From a virus: 20,532 bases of DNA. The translations under genes and the position numbers were made by a program. Of the stretch, positions 776 through 20,217 are shown in pieces (position 1 is the first letter of the stretch; each line of letters starts with the position of its first letter). Location: IMG/VR virus record IMGVR_UViG_3300037245_001929, positions 1 to 20,532 of that record. The stretch is one strand, 5' to 3'. Under the pieces are notes generated by a model. It was not told where the DNA came from. It saw only the letters and a list, made by a program, of their open reading frames with translations, and searched no databases.

Positions 776-1744
776 ATGGGCGTACAACTCAGTATAATTA
801 TACCTGGATCAGGCGAATTTCCGCAGAATGCCTTCTCGATCCAAAACGTAATCTCTACCCTAGAGTGCTCACCTTTAGACTTTGAGGTAATCTATATAGA
901 CAACAAGTCTGAGTACTCAGGCCCCAAGGCCGAGGAGAAGCTCCGCTACCTAGATGGCAAAGCAAAGCATCGCCTCACAACTCTGCATTACGACGATAAA
1001 CTGTCTCACTGGAATGCTAAGATGGTTGGGGTGGAAGCTGCAAAGGCTTCGACACTGTTCTTTATGGACGCCCATTGCATCCTTGAGCCGGATTCGCTGC
1101 TCAATATGTTTAAAGCTTACAAGACGAAGTATATGTCCCTCAACGGCTCCCTTCACATGCCCATATCCTACATGCTAGAACTCCCGGGCAAGGAGCTTAC
1201 GTACAAACACTTCTACAACAAGCCCCACGGCATCATGCACTATAGCTTTACTCGCATGAGAACACGGGACAAGATACATAAGATACCTAGCATGTCAACG
1301 TGCGGTTGTATGATTGAGAAAGAGATCTTGGTGGACGCCTGTGGAGGATGGCCCAAAGAACTAGGCATATACGGTGGAGGCGAGAACTTCCTCAACTACA
1401 CCATGGCTGTGTTAGGCTACGACAAGAATATATGGCCCTTTAACCCGATCCACCATTTCGCTTTTCAACGTGGGTACAGCTGGAACTACGATGATTTCGT
1501 CAGAAATCATATCATAGCATGCTATATGTGGGGTGGAGAGGCGTGGGTTGACCGTTTCATCGTGGGTAGACAGGCAATCAAGAAAGACAAGCCGGCAGTT
1601 CTCAATGGTATGAAAGATGATGTCATTAAGAAGTGCTCCGAGCAGAGAGAGCACATTAAGTCACTCCAGAAGTACTCGCCAGAAGAGTGGATGGACAAGA
1701 TGAGGGAAGAGTTGCCCCAATACATCCACGAGGACGTGAAATAA
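776..1744 (+). CDS. GT-A glycosyltransferase (GT2/GT27-like, DxH and GGEN motifs)
   Basis: This is a 322-residue GT-A fold transferase. The start LSIIIPGSG is the typical first beta strand of GT2-type enzymes, and EVIYIDNKS follows at 37-45. The metal site reads FMDAHC, with Asp98 and His100, a DxH rather than the usual DxD. Further on come CGGWP (189-193), GGGEN (200-204) and PIHHF (224-228). DxH, WGGEN and a later His are the metal and acceptor motifs of polypeptide GalNAc-transferases (GT27), which act on Ser/Thr. Some bacterial GT2 members share parts of this, so the acceptor is inferred. The C-terminal 60 residues are charged and helical. The start at 776 follows a strong AGGGGAGG. The stop overlaps the next ATG (TAATG). 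It probably acts in the host cytoplasm. Confidence 0.8.
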   Translation: MGVQLSIIIPGSGEFPQNAFSIQNVISTLECSPLDFEVIYIDNKSEYSGPKAEEKLRYLDGKAKHRLTTLHYDDKLSHWNAKMVGVEAAKASTLFFMDAHCILEPDSLLNMFKAYKTKYMSLNGSLHMPISYMLELPGKELTYKHFYNKPHGIMHYSFTRMRTRDKIHKIPSMSTCGCMIEKEILVDACGGWPKELGIYGGGENFLNYTMAVLGYDKNIWPFNPIHHFAFQRGYSWNYDDFVRNHIIACYMWGGEAWVDRFIVGRQAIKKDKPAVLNGMKDDVIKKCSEQREHIKSLQKYSPEEWMDKMREELPQYIHEDVK

Positions 1745-2340
1745 TGCAGTTCTTTGAGGAGTGTTGGCAGAAATTAAGGCATCTGAAGACATTCAACTTC
1801 CAGTTGGATGCAGTGCCGCGAGATTACTACCTTAGGATAGTCCAGGAGCACGCTCCTGAGACGTTCTTAGACGTCGGGTGTGGTACAGGCCTCACATATA
1901 AAGTGCTCTTAGAATCGAATTTAGACCCCTTGTACGTCGGATTAGATATTACACCTAGATTCATTAAACTGCTAAAGAAGAAGTATCCGGAAGCACAATG
2001 GCACGTTGGTAGAGCACAGAATTTACCCTTCCCTGATCGATCGTTTGACATGGTAACCTGTAGAGCTCTCCTAGAGCACCTGCCTGATCCGGCACCAGCT
2101 ATTAGAGAGATGGCTCGAGTAGCCAAAGACACGGTAGTCATCGTATGGCACCTAGACCCAAAGCCAAGAGAGACGCTACGTTTCTTAGAGAAACAGCAGG
2201 TTCACAACAACACTTATAGCAGAAAACGCATATGGGACATACTAGAGGAACTAGACCTGTCTATAGTGGACACTTTAGTACAACAACACAGAGAACATAA
2301 GAGAACCCATACCATCTGGGTATTAAAGCATGGTAAGTAG
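1744..2340 (+). CDS. Class I SAM-dependent methyltransferase
   Basis: This 198-residue protein has the Methyltransf_11-type core: motif I FLDVGCGTG (41-49) for SAM binding, an acidic strand end in VGLDIT (about residues 65-70), the post-II segment AQNLPFPDRSFDMV, and HLPDP. The start at 1744 overlaps the stop of the glycosyltransferase and is preferred over an in-frame upstream ATG at 1687, which would run deep into that gene. The substrate cannot be read from the sequence. Placed between a glycosyltransferase and a second methyltransferase, O-methylation of a sugar or glycan end is the simplest inference. A protein or small-molecule substrate is possible. Confidence 0.85.
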   Translation: MQFFEECWQKLRHLKTFNFQLDAVPRDYYLRIVQEHAPETFLDVGCGTGLTYKVLLESNLDPLYVGLDITPRFIKLLKKKYPEAQWHVGRAQNLPFPDRSFDMVTCRALLEHLPDPAPAIREMARVAKDTVVIVWHLDPKPRETLRFLEKQQVHNNTYSRKRIWDILEELDLSIVDTLVQQHREHKRTHTIWVLKHGK

Positions 2341-2348
2341 GAGGGGAG

Positions 2349-2966
2349 ATGCTAGATTTAGACAAGATTTACGGCGAGAAGTTCTTCACGGGACGGGAGT
2401 GGCTCAAAGGACGCAGCGGACAAATGGTCGAACACTTCAAGTTCATGTATCCGAATACAGAGACAACCCTAGACGTGGGAGCAGCAATAGGGGATTTTAC
2501 AGCTGCATGGTTGAAATTAGGTGTAGATGCCTACGCTCTGGAAGGGAGCGAGCAATGTGTCGAGAAGCTCGTAATTCCGAGGGAAAGAATGATCATAGCA
2601 GATCTCCGCTTTCCGATTGATCTACCAGTTGATGTCCCACAGAAGTATGATATGGTCACCTGTTGGGAAGTCGCAGAACACATCGAGCGAGAGTATGTGG
2701 TTCCCTTTATACAGAACCTAGCCAAGTTCGTAGAGGATGATGGCGTACTAGCCATGAGTATCTGCACCAAAAAGGGCAGATATCATTGCACCGTAGAGCC
2801 TCTAGAGTGGTGGTTCATGCAATTCAAGATGGGTGGATTTACCCACACAGGAAATGAAGATCTCTTCAGAGACCTAGCGGGTAGGGCCCATGGTGGATGG
2901 GAAAAACGTGAGGGAAACATTAGAATGCTTGGCGATAACATGGTCATCTTTGAGAGGGGAGAGTAA
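2349..2966 (+). CDS. Class I SAM-dependent methyltransferase (second)
   Basis: This 205-residue protein is a second Rossmann methyltransferase. Motif I is LDVGAAIGDF (41-50), the ribose-binding acidic residue lies in ALEGSE, and motif IV is YDMVTCWEVAEHIE. The C-terminal part is rich in Trp and His (EPLEWWFMQF), a likely acceptor-binding region. It is clearly diverged from the methyltransferase just upstream, so it is unlikely to be a recent duplicate. GAGGGGAG lies directly before the ATG, an unusually short spacing. Its place in the sugar cassette suggests glycan methylation, but no substrate is visible. Confidence 0.83.
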   Translation: MLDLDKIYGEKFFTGREWLKGRSGQMVEHFKFMYPNTETTLDVGAAIGDFTAAWLKLGVDAYALEGSEQCVEKLVIPRERMIIADLRFPIDLPVDVPQKYDMVTCWEVAEHIEREYVVPFIQNLAKFVEDDGVLAMSICTKKGRYHCTVEPLEWWFMQFKMGGFTHTGNEDLFRDLAGRAHGGWEKREGNIRMLGDNMVIFERGE

Positions 2967-3349: not shown

Positions 3350-3970
3350 ATGAAGAAGCGTATGCTAGTCCTATCAGCACACCCTGACGATGGCGAATTG
3401 GGCTGTGGAGGCACCATAGCCAGATACATAGAGGAAGGCTGGACTATCGTACATGCTGTATTCTGTGCCTCTGAGAACATTGGTACAAGCGTACTGCCCA
3501 AAGAAGTGATGCTCGATGAATTCGAGCAATCCAACCAAGTGCTCGGTACACATAAAACCTTCATGTTTGACTTTCCTCACAGACGGCTCAATGAGGCCAG
3601 ACAGGACATCCTAGAAGAAATGTGCGAATTAAACCGCACGATCGCTCCAGACCTAGTCCTCTTGCCTTCTACTGATGATCTACATCAAGACCATCTGACC
3701 ATATCAAATGAGGGGCTAAGGGCATTCAAAATGAGCAACATGTGGGGGTACGAAATGCTCTGGAACAACCTGATGTTCGATTCCCGCACCTTTGTTATCT
3801 TAGAAGAACGCCATATCGACAAGAAGATAGAGGCACTGTTGCAATATACCACACAACAATTTAAGCCCTACTTTAACCCAGGCTTTGTCAAGTCACTTGC
3901 CAATGTAAGGGGCATTCAGATAGGCCATGCTTACGCAGAGGTCTTTCAGCACGTAAGGGGGATTATTTAA
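3350..3970 (+). CDS. PIG-L/LmbE-family N-deacetylase
   Basis: This 206-residue protein matches the PIG-L (LmbE-like) zinc deacetylases, which remove acetyl from GlcNAc-type amino sugars linked to lipid, nucleotide, inositol or antibiotic scaffolds. The N-terminus has the AHPDDGELGCGG signature (residues 10-21; Asp13 is the general base position, and His11 and Asp14 are zinc ligands in the family). HQDH at 112-115 carries the third zinc ligand. The length is near the usual 200-250. It is followed at once by a 56-residue ORF, an acyl carrier protein and an LpxD-like N-acyltransferase. This suggests it exposes an amine that is then re-acylated. The substrate (UDP-sugar or finished glycan) is not evident. 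Confidence 0.9.
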   Translation: MKKRMLVLSAHPDDGELGCGGTIARYIEEGWTIVHAVFCASENIGTSVLPKEVMLDEFEQSNQVLGTHKTFMFDFPHRRLNEARQDILEEMCELNRTIAPDLVLLPSTDDLHQDHLTISNEGLRAFKMSNMWGYEMLWNNLMFDSRTFVILEERHIDKKIEALLQYTTQQFKPYFNPGFVKSLANVRGIQIGHAYAEVFQHVRGII

Positions 3971-4141
3971 ATGTCAAAAGCAATCGTAAGGTCTATTTTG
4001 GAGAAGCTATATAAGCCAGAAGTTATTGGAGAATTCACTCTTGCAGAGTTAGATATACTCCACACCCTTCTTGACCCGGGTCATGCTGTCCGCCACGAAA
4101 TACTAGACGAGCATTGCCCTATATGTAAACGGGGGACATAA
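3971..4141 (+). CDS. Small hypothetical protein with C-terminal HCPIC (56 aa)
   Basis: This 56-residue ORF begins immediately after the PIG-L stop, with AAGGGGG upstream at a good distance. It ends four bases before the acyl carrier protein ATG. It is helical in character and ends with DEHCPICKRGT, where a His and a CxxC pair could hold a metal. No family is recognised. It sits inside the deacetylase, ACP and acyltransferase block, so it may be a small accessory part of that set. That is position-based inference. Confidence 0.6.
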   Translation: MSKAIVRSILEKLYKPEVIGEFTLAELDILHTLLDPGHAVRHEILDEHCPICKRGT

Positions 4142-4145
4142 TCTA

Positions 4146-4379
4146 ATGCATGCAATGGTAGCAGGAGTCATAGCGGAGTACTTAGCCGTTGATATAGGGG
4201 ATGTGACCCCAAGTGCACATCTCAAAAACACCCTAGGAGCAGATTCTCTAGATTTGATCGAGATATTCAATGTGCTAGAGGAAGAGACAGGTAAGCACTT
4301 CAATAAAGACGCAATCAGAGCAGCCAGTACACTAGACGACATTGTTACGATGCTAGGGGGAACCCATGGCGACCACTAA
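4146..4379 (+). CDS. Acyl carrier protein
   Basis: This 77-residue protein has normal ACP size and the hallmark LGADSLDLIEIFNVLEEE motif. Ser34 in GADSL is the attachment site for 4'-phosphopantetheine, and acidic helix II follows it, the surface that partner enzymes recognise. No phosphopantetheinyl transferase gene is visible, so the host enzyme would be needed for activation. The 3' end overlaps the next gene by 14 bases in another frame, indicating translational coupling with the LpxD-like acyltransferase. It most likely supplies the acyl chain for that enzyme. Phage ACPs are uncommon and their roles are mostly unproven. Confidence 0.92.
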   Translation: MHAMVAGVIAEYLAVDIGDVTPSAHLKNTLGADSLDLIEIFNVLEEETGKHFNKDAIRAASTLDDIVTMLGGTHGDH

Positions 4380-5031
4380 TGAGCACAACCAAGAGAGATG
4401 GGAGTTCGCAATCAAGCGTCTCGAGCTCAATAGCATAGAGAACTCAGGGGCCATTACGGTTAGAAACGACCGCAAGGTTCACACTAAAAACATACATCCA
4501 TCTGCCATTATAGGTGATGGTACAATCATTCAGCCAGGCGCCCAGATAGGCCCTAACGTCACTATAGGTAGAAACTGCCTTATCAAGGCAGGGGCCATTA
4601 TCGGCTACAGAGGCTTCTCATTCGGCTTTACAGAGAACAACAAGCCAATATACTTTGCCCATACTGGATATGTCACTATAGGTGATGATGTACAAATCGG
4701 ATCCTGCACAACAATCAACAGAGGCACCCTAGAAACCACAACTATAGCAGATTACGTCAAGGTAGATGACAGGGTTCATGTGGCACACAATGTTCACATT
4801 GGTGAGAGTAGCTGTATAGTAGCAGGCACAGTTCTCTGTGGCAGCGTCAAACTAGGTAAGCATGTCTGGGTAGGGCCAAATACGGTCATTCTCAACGATC
4901 TATATGTAGCAGACTATACATTAGTTGGCGCCATGGCTAACGTGACCAAGGAATTCGAGAGAGGTGATATACTGGTAGGAAATCCCGCTAAAGCTATCAG
5001 GAATCGTATGGGAGATTTCCCCAATGCCTAA
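4366..5031 (+). CDS. LpxD-like acyl-ACP-dependent sugar N-acyltransferase
   Basis: This 221-residue left-handed beta-helix protein has repeated hexapeptides (IIGDGTIIQPGAQIGPNVTIG and onward) from residue 43 to about 195. It matches the central part of LpxD (UDP-3-O-acylglucosamine N-acyltransferase): GFSFGF at 83-88, IGDDVQIG at 105-112, NRGTLETT at 118-125, and VAHNVHIG at 139-146, whose His141 aligns with the catalytic His of LpxD. It lacks most of the N-terminal uridine-binding domain of full LpxD (about 340 residues), so the acceptor may differ from lipid A precursors. The C-terminus has the GNPAKAIRN ending of hexapeptide acyltransferases. Overlap with the ACP gene implies an acyl-ACP donor. 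The alternative is a PglD-like sugar N-acetyltransferase. Confidence 0.85.
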   Translation: MATTNEHNQERWEFAIKRLELNSIENSGAITVRNDRKVHTKNIHPSAIIGDGTIIQPGAQIGPNVTIGRNCLIKAGAIIGYRGFSFGFTENNKPIYFAHTGYVTIGDDVQIGSCTTINRGTLETTTIADYVKVDDRVHVAHNVHIGESSCIVAGTVLCGSVKLGKHVWVGPNTVILNDLYVADYTLVGAMANVTKEFERGDILVGNPAKAIRNRMGDFPNA

Positions 5032-5188
5032 ATTAGGAAGAGTATCAGGGGAAATCCAAGCAGGAGTCAACCGTGGCTATCTCGGCGCCATCAAAGATGA
5101 CCCTGATGTGCAAGAGCTCTTAAAGGAAGACTCAGAGAGAAAGATGGTTATCACAGTTCGTGATACCATCAATACGAGAGCCTCGTGA
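5024..5188 (+). CDS. Small hypothetical protein (54 aa)
   Basis: This 54-residue charged, mostly helical ORF starts inside the last codons of the acyltransferase gene (8-base overlap) and ends in ATGA with the next ORF. There is no clear Shine-Dalgarno sequence other than weak purines, so it would depend on coupling. No family is recognised. It contains a DDPDVQELLKEDSERK helix. Confidence 0.45.
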   Translation: MPKLGRVSGEIQAGVNRGYLGAIKDDPDVQELLKEDSERKMVITVRDTINTRAS

Positions 5189-5307
5189 TGAGCAGCTCTA
5201 GCTCACGCTCTACACCATCGCCACGTTTCATGTGGCGTGATCTCTGGGGATGGCCATTAGGACATCTCGTACTGTGGTATTCTAGGTTAAAGAGGTTGCT
5301 TAAATGA
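5188..5307 (+). CDS. Small Ser-rich protein with RFMxRDLWGWPLGH motif (copy 1)
   Basis: This 39-residue ORF starts with a Ser run (SSSSSRSTPSP), then RFMWRDLWGWPLGH and an aromatic/basic helix (LVLWYSRLKRLLK). A second gene in the window, at 8429-8623, has the same motif at its C-terminus, with 13 of 14 motif residues identical but different codons (GAT/GAC, CTC/CTT, GGA/GGT, TTA/CTT). Conserved protein with divergent codons shows that this is a real, selected coding sequence. The C-terminal half looks amphipathic and could bind membranes. It overlaps both neighbours by ATGA. Function unknown. Confidence 0.65.
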   Translation: MSSSSSRSTPSPRFMWRDLWGWPLGHLVLWYSRLKRLLK

Positions 5308-6383
5308 GGATGATTTACATCCATAAAAGCCTAAATGCCAAACTGGAAGGGTGGGATGGCAACGTACACAATGTAGAGACTAAGAACATCCTCGCTACAG
5401 TGGATTTCGCTACAGACGGTCATCTTTTATTTCTAGAGGCCCTGCTAGAAGAAAACGTGTTTAGTGAGATACTGGTGATCATCGAATCCGCCCGGCAGCC
5501 TGGACGCCTAAAAATAGGCAACATTAATATAATAGTCATACCCGCAATCAAGCCCTACATGAAGTCCTTTAGAAAGGACGATGTACTCTACTGGCGTGGA
5601 GGGTATGACTGGTGGTGGGCACTTCTAGACAAGCTACCAGGAAACTGGCACCTCTATTATGGAGCAGGTACACCAAGGGCAGGTTGGCCACAATGGGACG
5701 TAATCCTCTGGGAAGGAGAGCAATCAATCACTAAACGGGGCAAATTATACATTCCCTGGAGCAAACCGGTCAATACAGACATATTTAACTTCAAACCGGG
5801 GAATACACCATATGATGTGATGACGTCACCCTCTAAGATATTCGATATCAAGCAACAGTATAAAACGATCGATGCAATGAAGGCTTATCAAAAGCGATAT
5901 GGCAAGGTGTTAAGTGTTATCATGCCTGGAGCATACAGAAGCTCAAGAGAGACCTCTAGAGTCAATCGAATGATTATAGCAGAGAAACTGCCTGTTTATA
6001 GACCAGGATATGTCCCTAGAGACGAGTTAGCCGTCCTGTACAACAAGACCAAGCTTATGACCCACCATGCAAGCGGCTTAAATGATCGATGTGTATTAGA
6101 AGCTATGATGTGTGGTGTTCCTCTTTTATCACTCTCAGAAGGAGGCGGACGCTATCCAAAATGGGTAAAAACCATGAGGGTGCTCGCAAAGGGCGCGGAT
6201 CCGGATAATCTAGCTCAAGCAATTCATCATATGCTCAATAACCTCCCTGACAGGGAAGAGGCTGCAAAGGCCGCGGCCAAACATAACTCTATAACACCAA
6301 CAGTAGAAAGCTTCAAGAAACTAGTACCATTACTCCGCCAACCCAAGAACAGAGCATTGCTCGTTAAGGAGTATTTGGCATGA
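5304..6383 (+). CDS. GT-B glycosyltransferase (GT4-like)
   Basis: This 359-residue protein has the two-lobed GT-B pattern. The N-terminal lobe has a YWRGGYDWWW region (96-105). The C-terminal lobe has the donor-binding motif GLNDRCVLEAMMCGVPLL (258-275), in which Glu266 is the expected E-x7-E-type nucleotide-sugar contact, followed by LSEGGG. The C-terminal helix region ends with KRLV-like basic segments. Start 5304 overlaps the previous stop (ATGA); a second in-frame ATG lies six bases on. It closes the sugar cassette right after the ACP and LpxD-like genes, so its sugar or acceptor may be an N-acylated amino sugar. Donor and acceptor cannot be read from sequence. Confidence 0.8.
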   Translation: MRMIYIHKSLNAKLEGWDGNVHNVETKNILATVDFATDGHLLFLEALLEENVFSEILVIIESARQPGRLKIGNINIIVIPAIKPYMKSFRKDDVLYWRGGYDWWWALLDKLPGNWHLYYGAGTPRAGWPQWDVILWEGEQSITKRGKLYIPWSKPVNTDIFNFKPGNTPYDVMTSPSKIFDIKQQYKTIDAMKAYQKRYGKVLSVIMPGAYRSSRETSRVNRMIIAEKLPVYRPGYVPRDELAVLYNKTKLMTHHASGLNDRCVLEAMMCGVPLLSLSEGGGRYPKWVKTMRVLAKGADPDNLAQAIHHMLNNLPDREEAAKAAAKHNSITPTVESFKKLVPLLRQPKNRALLVKEYLA

Positions 6384-8233: not shown

Positions 8234-8454
8234 CACCAGAGAAAGAAGAAAGAAAGCATAAATTCCACTGCCCTCTTTGTTCTGCCAAGCTCATCAAGAG
8301 AGGACTAATCAAGAAGGAAGGAGTTCCTGGGTTGGTCTACCAGACTCTCGCACTTGGGTGTTGGCACTGTCAGGAGTGCCTTACTAACTTCCACATACTA
8401 ATTACAAGGGACTGTACAAGGAGAGAAGATGACAGGATACAAAGGAAGTACTAG
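8230..8454 (+). CDS. Zinc-ribbon protein (74 aa)
   Basis: This 74-residue protein has two Cys knuckles, CPLC (14-17) and CWHC (44-47, with Cys50 close by), separated by 26 residues. This spacing is typical of a Cys4 zinc ribbon. It is very basic at both ends, which fits nucleic-acid binding. It overlaps the HTH gene by ATGA and the following gene by 26 bases. No specific family is recognised. Confidence 0.65.
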   Translation: MTPEKEERKHKFHCPLCSAKLIKRGLIKKEGVPGLVYQTLALGCWHCQECLTNFHILITRDCTRREDDRIQRKY

Positions 8455-8623
8455 TGCCCTAGCACAGTTGGAGCGCAAGCTCTCAACTAGTTCCTCCTCT
8501 AGTGGGGGAGGATCCACCAGTCGGACCACACCCACTAAGAGGTTCATGTTGAGAGACCTTTGGGGTTGGCCACTTGGACATATAAGGCTACTGATCTATA
8601 GAATGAAACAAGTAAGAACCTAA
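8429..8623 (+). CDS. Small Ser-rich protein with RFMxRDLWGWPLGH motif (copy 2)
   Basis: This 64-residue protein has a Ser/Gly/Thr-rich middle (STSSSSSGGGSTSRTTPT) followed by RFMLRDLWGWPLGH and an aromatic/basic end (IRLLIYRMK). It is a paralogue of the 39-residue protein at 5188-5307. Apart from one position the motif is identical, while synonymous codons differ, which means selection on the peptide. GGAGAGAAG precedes the ATG. The role is unknown. One copy sits in the sugar cassette and one next to the packaging genes. Confidence 0.7.
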   Translation: MTGYKGSTSALAQLERKLSTSSSSSGGGSTSRTTPTKRFMLRDLWGWPLGHIRLLIYRMKQVRT

Positions 8624-14414: not shown

Positions 14415-15053
14415 ATGTCAACAACCAGCAGCACTACATCTACATCTAGCAGTACAACAACAACAACCACTCTCCCAATCGAGATCTTTGTCACTACAGA
14501 TGACATAAAGAACTATCTGGGAGATATGGATGAGATTTCCAGCTCTGAAGAGACCCTTCTACAGCAGATGATTGATAGTGTGCAGGCATTATTCGAAGCA
14601 TATATCAACAGGAAACTGGCACGAGATGTCTTTGTAGAGATACATGATGGCGAGTACTCTGACAAGCTATTCCCAAACAATGTACCTGTTTCGTCTATTC
14701 AGTCGATACACCAGTCAATTGACCGGACCTGGGATAGCACTACACTGATGCCCACCACAGAGTATACTATAGCCCACAATACTTATATTCAGCTCTTCAC
14801 CAGAACCCTTAACTACCCTCAGTCAGTGCGAGTTGTCTATACCGCGGGCTACACTACAGATACGTACCCGCCGGACTTAAAGCAGGCTACCATTGAGCAG
14901 GTGGCCTATAAGTTCACCCACGAGTATACGGGTAGGAACTTAGGGATTAGTGCCAGAACATATCAAGATGGTACACTGGCTTACAGGCCGGGCACAATAT
15001 TACCTGGCGTTACAGTCGTACTTAACCGCTATAGAAAGATGAATCTGGGCTAA
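14415..15053 (+). CDS. Head-tail connector (gp6-like) with N-terminal Thr/Ser tract
   Basis: This 212-residue protein begins with 18 or so Ser/Thr residues (2-19) before LPIEIFVTTDDIKNYLG, the normal start of gp6-like or phiE125 gp8-like connectors. The core has helices LLQQMIDSVQALFEAYINRKL and the beta region VRVVYTAGYTTDTYPPDLKQA. These proteins form a ring below the portal. The Thr/Ser tract is an add-on that standard family members lack. It might be exposed on the neck or be a glycosylation target (inferred). The stop overlaps the next ATG. Confidence 0.82.
   Translation: MSTTSSTTSTSSSTTTTTTLPIEIFVTTDDIKNYLGDMDEISSSEETLLQQMIDSVQALFEAYINRKLARDVFVEIHDGEYSDKLFPNNVPVSSIQSIHQSIDRTWDSTTLMPTTEYTIAHNTYIQLFTRTLNYPQSVRVVYTAGYTTDTYPPDLKQATIEQVAYKFTHEYTGRNLGISARTYQDGTLAYRPGTILPGVTVVLNRYRKMNLG
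14418..14471 (+). repeat. Thr/Ser-coding low-complexity tract at the N-terminus of the connector
   Basis: Mixed ACA/ACT/ACC and AGC/TCT codons encode an unbroken run of Thr and Ser. The codons are mixed rather than a pure trinucleotide repeat, which argues for selection on the peptide. Similar tracts occur in the tail tube protein and in minor tail protein M. Confidence 0.85.
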
Positions 15054-15903: not shown

Positions 15904-16383
15904 ATGGCCCAGATTATGGGAAAGGATGCTTCCATATACCTAGGAAACGATATGGTAGCACAAATGGTGGAATACTCCATCAACGTCAGCTCAGAACTGG
16001 CGGGTGAGGCAGAGTTTGGAGATGATTGGGATCGTAAGATTGGTTCCGCTCTCAATAGCTTTACCATCACCATGTCTGGGCTCGCAAGTCTGGTGGACAC
16101 CACAGGTCAAGACATACTTGAGGCAGCCGCTTTAAACGGCACAAGAATCACTAATCTCAAGCTGTTTGTCGAGACAAGAGCTAATGGAGCCAAGTATTGG
16201 TGGGCAGACTATATCAATGACTCGGCAGACGCTGGAGTGTACGTTGAATCAATCAACGTCACATCCCCAAGAGGCGGTGTAGTTGGTTTAGAGATCACTC
16301 TAACAGGTACAGGTACCCTGACCACTGCCACTCACACTACTACAACCACAACAACCTCTACAACAACCACAACCACACCGTAA
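15904..16383 (+). CDS. Tail tube protein, copy 1, with C-terminal Thr tract
   Basis: This 159-residue beta-rich protein is likely a tail tube subunit of the TP901-1/lambda gpV-like group. Typical segments are MAQIMGKDASIY, GEAEFGDDWDRKIGSAL (34-50), SINVTSPRGGVVGLEITLTGTG. After GTG it carries 22 extra residues, almost all Thr (138-159). The following gene encodes a paralogue that lacks this tail. The Thr tail would project from the tube surface if the usual topology applies (inference). AAGGAG precedes the ATG. Confidence 0.85.
   Translation: MAQIMGKDASIYLGNDMVAQMVEYSINVSSELAGEAEFGDDWDRKIGSALNSFTITMSGLASLVDTTGQDILEAAALNGTRITNLKLFVETRANGAKYWWADYINDSADAGVYVESINVTSPRGGVVGLEITLTGTGTLTTATHTTTTTTTSTTTTTTP
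16315..16380 (+). repeat. Thr-coding low-complexity tract at the C-terminus of tail tube copy 1
   Basis: A run of mostly ACA, ACT and ACC codons encodes the last 22 residues. It is absent from the neighbouring paralogue, whose reading frame ends shortly after the shared GTG. Confidence 0.85.
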
Positions 16384-16395
16384 GGAGCTTAAACT

Positions 16396-16812
16396 ATGGC
16401 ACAGTTACTTGGTAAAGATGCCGCATTTAAGATTACTACTACTCCAGTAGCACAGATGGCAGAGTGGTCAATCAACATCTCTAGCGAGAACGTCGGTGAA
16501 GCCGAGTTCGGAGATGACTGGGACCGCAAGATAGGTTCTGCCCTGTTGACCTGGACAGCTACAGTATCCGGCTTCGCTTCCGTGGATGATGGCTCTGGAC
16601 AGGATGTCTTAGAAGCTGCAGTCCTAGCAGGGACAAAGCTGTCGACCCTACGTTTCTACGTAGATGCTACAAACTACTGGACGTCAGATACCGGTAGTGA
16701 TGCTACCGCCGGCGCCTTCATCGAGGGATTTAATATCACAGCACCTCGAGGTGGAGTCGTAGGTCTTGAAATCACTATCTCAGGTACCGGTCCACTACAC
16801 AAAACTACCTAA
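16396..16812 (+). CDS. Tail tube protein, copy 2 (paralogue without Thr tail)
   Basis: This 138-residue paralogue of the previous gene has shared blocks MAQxxGKDA, VAQMxExSINxSSE, GEAEFGDDWDRKIGSAL, GQDxLEAA and PRGGVVGLEIT. Between these blocks the two are well diverged, so this is not a recent duplication. It ends ISGTGPLHKTT with no Thr tract. The two may form a mixed tube, or one may be the tube and the other a tip or decoration subunit. AAGGAG precedes the ATG. Confidence 0.85.
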   Translation: MAQLLGKDAAFKITTTPVAQMAEWSINISSENVGEAEFGDDWDRKIGSALLTWTATVSGFASVDDGSGQDVLEAAVLAGTKLSTLRFYVDATNYWTSDTGSDATAGAFIEGFNITAPRGGVVGLEITISGTGPLHKTT

Positions 16813-19620: not shown

Positions 19621-20217
19621 ATGACAACATCTTCAACCAGTACCTCAACGAGTACATCAACAACAACTTCAAGTAGTACCTCGACTACTCTTTCCACCTC
19701 CACGAGCACAAGTACTCACACGACCTCTACACACTCCACGACATCGAGCACGTCTAGCACCTCTTCCAGCACGAGCACAAGTACGTCTACACTTAGTACA
19801 GCCAGTACGTCTTCTACTGTCTCCACCTCAAGCACAAGTAGCAGTTCTTCTTCCACAACTACGACTACAGAGCCTTTAAACACCTTTTCCTACATCCCTA
19901 CATATAGTAGTAGAAAGAGAACGAAGCCAAGGATCCTAATAGCAAACCTAGGTGACGGATACCGCACCAGAGTTCCGGATGGTCTCAATTATCTAGACGA
20001 AGAGTGGAGTCTTACCTTTGTGAAGGCAAAAGCCACGATAGACGAGATTGAAGCCTTCTTAGAAGAGCGAGGTGGGTATGGAGCCTTCTTCTGGAGCGAT
20101 CCACGTAGCGAAGTGAGGCAAGTATGGACTTGTGAGGAGTGGAATAGAACCTTCCAAGGTGATAAAGTTGATAAACTGACCTGTAGATTCCGCAAGGAAT
20201 ATGACCTATACGGATAG
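19621..20217 (+). CDS. Minor tail protein M-like with long N-terminal Ser/Thr tract
   Basis: Residues 2-83 of this 198-residue protein are almost only Ser and Thr with a few Leu, His, Ala and Val. Residues 87-198 match the lambda gpM family (Phage_min_tail): LGDGYRTRVPDGLN (110-123), a WSLTF strand, IEAFLEERGGYGAFFWSDP (143-161), CEEW (171-174) and LTCRFRKEY. Lambda gpM has no such tract. gpM lies at the tail tip and helps connect the baseplate-like cone. The tract would add a flexible, possibly glycosylated arm to the tip. AAGGAG lies before the ATG. Confidence 0.88.
   Translation: MTTSSTSTSTSTSTTTSSSTSTTLSTSTSTSTHTTSTHSTTSSTSSTSSSTSTSTSTLSTASTSSTVSTSSTSSSSSSTTTTTEPLNTFSYIPTYSSRKRTKPRILIANLGDGYRTRVPDGLNYLDEEWSLTFVKAKATIDEIEAFLEERGGYGAFFWSDPRSEVRQVWTCEEWNRTFQGDKVDKLTCRFRKEYDLYG
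19624..19869 (+). repeat. Ser/Thr-coding low-complexity tract, about 82 residues
   Basis: Mixed Ser and Thr codons (TCA, TCT, TCC, AGT, AGC, ACA, ACT, ACC, ACG) form the longest such run in the window. Use of six-fold Ser codons shows that the peptide, not a simple DNA repeat, is maintained. The DNA has many AGTAC and GAGCAC-type short repeats that could allow slippage in length. Confidence 0.88.

Follow-up and report, generated by a model that had tools for sequence, protein, structure and literature searches.

A gene for a PIG-L family de-N-acetylase and a gene for an LpxD-like N-acyltransferase were found together in a tightly packed glycan operon on a tailed-phage contig, and genes of the same two types recur side by side in other viral loci. 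The contig, IMG/VR record IMGVR_UViG_3300037245_001929, is a linear virus fragment of 20,532 bases that was studied in its entirety and is referred to here as the window. The recurrent pair suggests an undescribed viral route to altering the acyl group of an amino sugar. In the account that we favor, with confidence that is about evenly balanced, the phage glycan operon includes an acyl-exchange step on a sugar amine. The steps that we infer are as follows. PIG-L would remove N-acetyl from an amino sugar that is most likely in nucleotide-activated form, and the LpxD-like enzyme would add another acyl group to the freed amine from a thioester donor. A dedicated phage acyl carrier protein (ACP), primed and loaded by host enzymes, would probably carry this acyl group, which would probably be short (e.g., 3-hydroxybutyryl) rather than a lipid-A-like fatty acid. 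Glycosyltransferases would then pass the modified sugar to its acceptor. The enzyme families involved are already known, and what is new is their arrangement and their recurrence in phages. No paper describing the pair in phages was found by a literature search that excluded most subscription journals and is therefore weak evidence.

Gene identities and operon layout

The contig certainly comes from a tailed phage. The window proteins include an HK97-type portal protein that scored over its cut-off, a terminase, a Phage_capsid protein, a tail tube protein, a tape measure protein, and a minor tail protein. Since the record is a linear fragment, only part of the phage genome is visible. A run of glycan genes lies upstream of the terminase, portal, and capsid genes, on the same strand throughout (the plus strand). 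It encodes, in order, a GT2-family glycosyltransferase, two methyltransferases, three small open reading frames (ORFs), PIG-L, a 56-amino-acid ORF, the ACP, the LpxD-like protein, two further small ORFs, and a GT-B glycosyltransferase. A first-pass annotation of the window, made from its letters and ORFs, had listed the genes from PIG-L to GT-B as one coupled operon, and all of them were recovered in place with the motifs it had named. The successive junctions from PIG-L to GT-B measure 0, 4, -14, -8, -1, and -4 nucleotides (negative values are overlaps), a packing that fits translational coupling. The 14-nucleotide overlap is that of the ACP and LpxD-like genes.

The PIG-L gene (3350..3970) encodes 206 amino acids. 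Its product matched Pfam PF02585 (E=1.5e-18; 68.0 bits, passing the curated cut-off of 28.2) and phrog_11796 (E=5e-21). The characteristic motifs HPDD (H11-D14) and HQDH (H112-H115) are present, and residues H11, D13, D14, H112, D114, and H115 are invariant with other phage PIG-L proteins and align with the structures 1uan and 2ixd. The ACP (4146..4379; 77 amino acids) carries the DSL serine, Ser34, in a GADSL site. It passed the cut-off of Pfam PF00550 (E=2e-9; 38.0 versus 20.8 bits) and matched solved ACPs (E=3e-8), and it fell below the cut-offs of the NCBIfam fatty-acid ACP models (e.g., 47 versus 71).

The LpxD-like protein (4366..5031; 221 amino acids) is a left-handed beta-helix (LbH) acyltransferase. 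Two NCBIfam LpxD models matched it with 162.8 and 161.2 bits (E ~1e-47), below their respective cut-offs of 207 and 242.5, and the match covers the beta-helix only. The NeuD model TIGR03570 gave 95.8 bits, failing its cut-off of 160.8. An AlphaFold2 model built on an alignment of 16 sequences had a mean pLDDT of 86.1; values exceeded 90 across most of the beta-helix and were low for the first 40 residues. When this model was compared with the PDB using Foldseek, ranks 1-22 were all LpxD structures. Residues 39-145 matched LpxD first and by a wide margin (E=4e-22). The catalytic His242 of Pseudomonas aeruginosa LpxD, whose residue roles we take from PMC6820557, is conserved and aligns with His141 of the window enzyme.

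The GT-B glycosyltransferase (5304..6383; 359 amino acids) matched two Pfam families above their cut-offs, PF13692 (E=1.3e-6) and PF00534 (E=2.3e-6), although the PF13692 score of 29.2 bits is barely above the cut-off of 27. Judged by these comparisons, the assignments of PIG-L, ACP, LpxD-like protein, and GT-B to their enzyme families lie far beyond chance.

The PIG-L/LpxD-like pair in viruses and bacteria

Single-protein scans of viral contigs gave no close relatives of the LpxD-like protein, PIG-L, or the terminase. Relatives came from alignment scans alone, which returned 226 for PIG-L and 111 for the LbH family; the best 80 of each were kept. PIG-L and LbH genes lay within 300 nucleotides of each other on the same strand in 22 of 80 loci from the PIG-L scan and 27 of 78 from the LbH scan. 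Removal of near-identical PIG-L proteins left 26 non-redundant viral pairs, with PIG-L first in 18. An LbH gene was the immediate neighbor of PIG-L in 15 of 63 non-redundant PIG-L loci, compared with 4.3 expected from random placement within the locus, and a count of 15 was not reached in 100,000 simulations of such placement. Protein distances of the two partners were correlated (Mantel r=0.53, p=0.0003, n=26); this value and the adjacency counts are indicative only, because the loci were selected by homology to window genes and the 26 partners include a few hexapeptide proteins of a generic kind that are not LpxD-like. Genes for portal, major head, terminase, tail spike, or DNA polymerase proteins are present on the pair contigs that were examined, and the neighborhoods of the pairs are rich in glycosyltransferases, nucleotide-sugar epimerases, and methyltransferases. 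Some apparent phage matches to LpxD and PIG-L (L006 and L008) read as bacterial contigs on inspection and were set aside. The idea of a downstream glycosyltransferase common to the pairs was likewise dropped, the window GT-B being not clearly related to the recurrent one (hhalign probability 0.9%).

Of the 26 viral partners, eight have lengths of 273-323 amino acids, and those aligned have the LpxD-type N-terminal, uridine-binding domain. Two full-length viral partners pass an NCBIfam LpxD-subfamily cut-off. A model of one full-length partner, that of L198 (mean pLDDT 89.3), matches LpxD structures from end to end (TM-score 0.68-0.79). Since the full-length viral partners are LpxD relatives, the preferred reading of the window enzyme is that it is a shortened form within a group of LpxD-derived proteins that are paired with PIG-L. 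The uridine-binding domain of its full-length relatives points to a probable nucleotide-sugar substrate.

The pair is found in bacteria as well. Among the best 80 LbH genome matches, three of the top four (L250, L251, and L253) have PIG-L followed by a full-length LpxD-like gene within a sugar cluster, and a class-wide search gave a fourth bacterial pair (L335). A FabG-type reductase gene, over at least one curated cut-off in each case, lies near the pair in L251 and L253. The L253 genome has, on another contig, a second, LpxD-sized match beside an LpxA-sized match, so its PIG-L/LpxD-like pair is probably separate from that genome's lipid A enzyme set. In a further bacterial locus (L338:573-2217), an LpxD-like paralogue is preceded by an ORF with no Pfam match and a HisF-like gene, not by PIG-L.

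Viral adjacency, the full-length viral partners, and the bacterial pairs support the first-pass proposal that PIG-L, which is not homologous to LpxC, and the LpxD-like enzyme form an analogue of LpxC and LpxD. In steps 2 and 3 of lipid A synthesis, those two enzymes free the amine on a uridine diphosphate (UDP)-amino sugar and then N-acylate it. The window enzyme has the beta-helix type and catalytic His of LpxD, and several viral partners have its uridine-binding domain too; the deacetylase is of the PIG-L type, however, and there is no lipid A context. Single-domain hexapeptide N-acyltransferases (NeuD, PglD, VioB, QdtC, and Pcryo_0615) resemble the window enzyme in their single beta-helix, short tail, and C-terminal VTK and GNPAK-type signature. 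The window enzyme differs from the NeuD/PglD/VioB type in its much higher LpxD than NeuD score and in its N-terminal half, which is nearest LpxD. A deacetylation and re-acylation sequence occurs in teicoplanin-type lipoglycopeptide antibiotics, where PIG-L removes N-acetyl and a second enzyme re-acylates the same glucosamine. That acyltransferase is from a different family, and its substrate is a sugar that the peptide already carries, whereas the phage set has an LpxD-type enzyme and an ACP.

In Arthrobacter and Vibrio phages, a glycosyltransferase gene lies close to a PIG-L gene of this broad family, but neither an LpxD-like partner nor an ACP is present near PIG-L. In the Arthrobacter phages (L003:4320-6591 and L005:4859-6621) the glycosyltransferase gene stands directly before PIG-L, without an LpxD-like partner. 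In two viral sugar clusters (L172:4780-8815 and L043:6947-9991), PIG-L adjoins a Gfo/Idh/MocA (WlbA-like) oxidoreductase gene, and L043 additionally has genes that read as a UDP-N-acetylglucosamine epimerase and a hexapeptide acetyltransferase. In another viral locus (L017:2743-4897), PIG-L is followed by a FabG-like reductase gene and then by hexapeptide genes, a hint of a 3-hydroxyacyl donor.

Acyl donor, target amine, and competing explanations

A number of observations weigh against the acyl-exchange account. Two domains of LpxD are missing from the window enzyme. Only ~40 low-confidence residues precede its beta-helix, in place of the N-terminal uridine-binding domain, and 12 residues follow the NPAK motif, with no long C-terminal helix in the model to match the ACP-recognition helix. 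Acyl-pocket residues Ala253, Met269, Ala271, Gly272, and Phe287 of P. aeruginosa LpxD (PMC6820557) correspond to Val152, Trp168, Gly170, Pro171, and Leu186. For residues 146-221 the leading matches are acetyltransferases (8vr6, E=1.4e-10; VioB, 1.6e-9), with LpxD lower down. Neither an acyl-loading gene nor an aminotransferase gene was recognized in the window, itself a fragment, and no PP-binding (ACP) domain was found in any of 27 pair-bearing viral records, each searched whole and most possibly fragments. Finally, it is from genetic linkage that we infer action of PIG-L and the LpxD-like enzyme on the same amine. The first-pass annotation had named lack of the acyl-pantetheine groove as a reason to abandon its proposal, and the pocket and tail of the window enzyme make such a lack more plausible.

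Of 32 viral PIG-L partners compared, 29 have an aromatic residue (Trp, Phe, or Tyr) at the position equivalent to Met269. Beyond the NPAK motif, the tails of the same 32 proteins have a median length of 7 residues versus 37 in other bacterial matches, a rough yardstick because those bacterial proteins are a mixture of LpxD and other hexapeptide enzymes. As read from the alignments, the pocket and tail speak against both a long acyl chain and an LpxD-like mode of ACP binding, and they are compatible with the ACP as a possible donor. Replacement of N-acetyl by a longer acyl group, as originally suggested for this operon, was not borne out, given the prevalence of an aromatic residue at the Met269 position, the missing ACP-recognition helix, and a C-terminal third closest to acetyl-CoA (acetyl-coenzyme A) transferases.

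The ACP itself is not part of what recurs. An iterated ACP profile run against all six frames of the loci found no ACP near PIG-L or LbH genes in any other viral locus examined. The PP-binding domain search that drew a blank in the 27 pair-bearing records found the domain in 11 of 14 control genomes. The expectation that other phages would keep PIG-L, ACP, and LpxD-like genes together therefore failed in the loci and records searched, and a conserved trio was rejected; PIG-L and the LpxD-like gene alone are kept together. Because no ACP accompanies the other viral pairs, the ACP is, as far as these profiles can tell, a local addition in this phage.

The best-surviving competitor, to which we give a minor but real likelihood, holds that the LpxD-like enzyme is an amino-sugar acyltransferase dependent on acetyl- or short-acyl-CoA and that the ACP is independent of it, whether as part of a host fatty-acid takeover or as a gene inserted by chance between those of PIG-L and the acyltransferase. 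It would account for the acetyltransferase-like C-terminal third, for the aromatic residue and GNPAK-type ending across partners, and for the ACP-free viral pairs. It sits poorly with the overlap of the ACP and acyltransferase genes, which is the main reason for linking the two proteins, and with the recurrence of LpxD-like/ACP gene overlaps in two bacterial loci, both without PIG-L (L269:7608-8745 and L328:7551-8958). Plain acetyl transfer after PIG-L would, moreover, reverse the deacetylation. In L328 a ketosynthase-like gene follows the overlapping genes.

An unlikely arrangement is that PIG-L and the LpxD-like enzyme serve one glycan pathway but differ in the nitrogen, or the sugar, on which they act; PIG-L might, for instance, free a 2-amine while the LbH enzyme acylates an amine at position 3 or 4 that an aminotransferase encoded elsewhere in the genome has introduced. 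Many LbH sugar N-acyltransferases do act on 3- or 4-amino sugars. Pcryo_0615 and QdtC, enzymes of this type, are among the second tier of Foldseek matches, and some viral relatives stand alongside WlbA-like genes or genes that we take to be WecB/WlbB-like. Against this, it is precisely these two genes that directly adjoin, with correlated divergence; LpxD acylates the amine that a deacetylase has freed (PMC6820557); and the window has no recognized aminotransferase.

We consider it improbable that phage DNA bases, instead of virion proteins, host polysaccharide, or lipid, receive the modified sugar. Glycosylation of phage DNA by phage glycosyltransferases has been reported in work cited in PMC12619734, and some PIG-L phages have glycosyltransferase and ParB-like genes, but the ParB-bearing phages examined lack an LpxD-like partner near PIG-L, and no base-modification gene was recognized in the window. 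A role for PIG-L in low-molecular-weight thiol synthesis of the bacillithiol type, with unrelated neighbors, is scarcely credible and was rejected, since its best NCBIfam match, BshB1 (TIGR04001; E=1.8e-19), scores only 70.4 bits, far under the cut-off of 182.5, and the neighbors of viral PIG-L genes are glycan genes, not thiol genes.

Returning to acyl exchange, we offer a broader proposal tentatively, as possible but doubtful: phages may hold a widespread module of PIG-L and an LpxD-derived enzyme that re-acylates nucleotide amino sugars without lipid A, to which this phage would have added an ACP so as to furnish a viral glycan, on the virion or the host surface, with an acyl group other than acetyl. 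If this is true, phages have a compact means of changing the acyl group of amino sugars, one whose deacetylase has no relation to LpxC. A testable function would follow for phrog_11796 and for several hexapeptide PHROG families that are now annotated as unknown, some viral LpxD-type genes would be explained as serving glycan and not lipid A synthesis, and acylated glycans would emerge as a trait of viruses with a possible bearing on host recognition.

Other genes in the window and candidate acceptors

The upstream members of the glycan run are the GT2-family glycosyltransferase gene (776..1744; PF00535, E=2.4e-7, over cut-off) and two genes for S-adenosylmethionine-dependent methyltransferases (1744..2340, PF08241, E=5.8e-23; 2349..2966, PF13489, E=1.4e-7). 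The 56-amino-acid ORF between PIG-L and the ACP (3971..4141) and the coupled 54-amino-acid ORF after the LpxD-like gene (5024..5188) have no recognizable relatives in family searches or among the loci examined. The 39-amino-acid ORF (5188..5307) resembles only another small ORF of the window (8429-8623), with which it shares RFMxRDLWGWPLGH after a Ser-rich start; small ORFs with this motif are absent from all other loci examined. No near-DNA counterpart of the window was found among known phages, and PADLOC matched no known defense system.

Three virion genes encode mucin-like Ser/Thr-rich tails, with 20-residue stretches that are 85-100% Ser/Thr. These are the gene directly after the capsid gene (14415-15053), the tail tube gene (15904-16383; at the C-terminus), and the minor tail protein gene (19621-20217; at the N-terminus). 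The tails are possible glycan acceptors. In Mycobacterium phages, glycans occur at the C-termini of capsid and tail-tube subunits, according to work cited in PMC12619734. The tail tube gene has a tandem tail-tube-like paralogue (16396-16812), and the Thr-rich tail is present on the first copy only.

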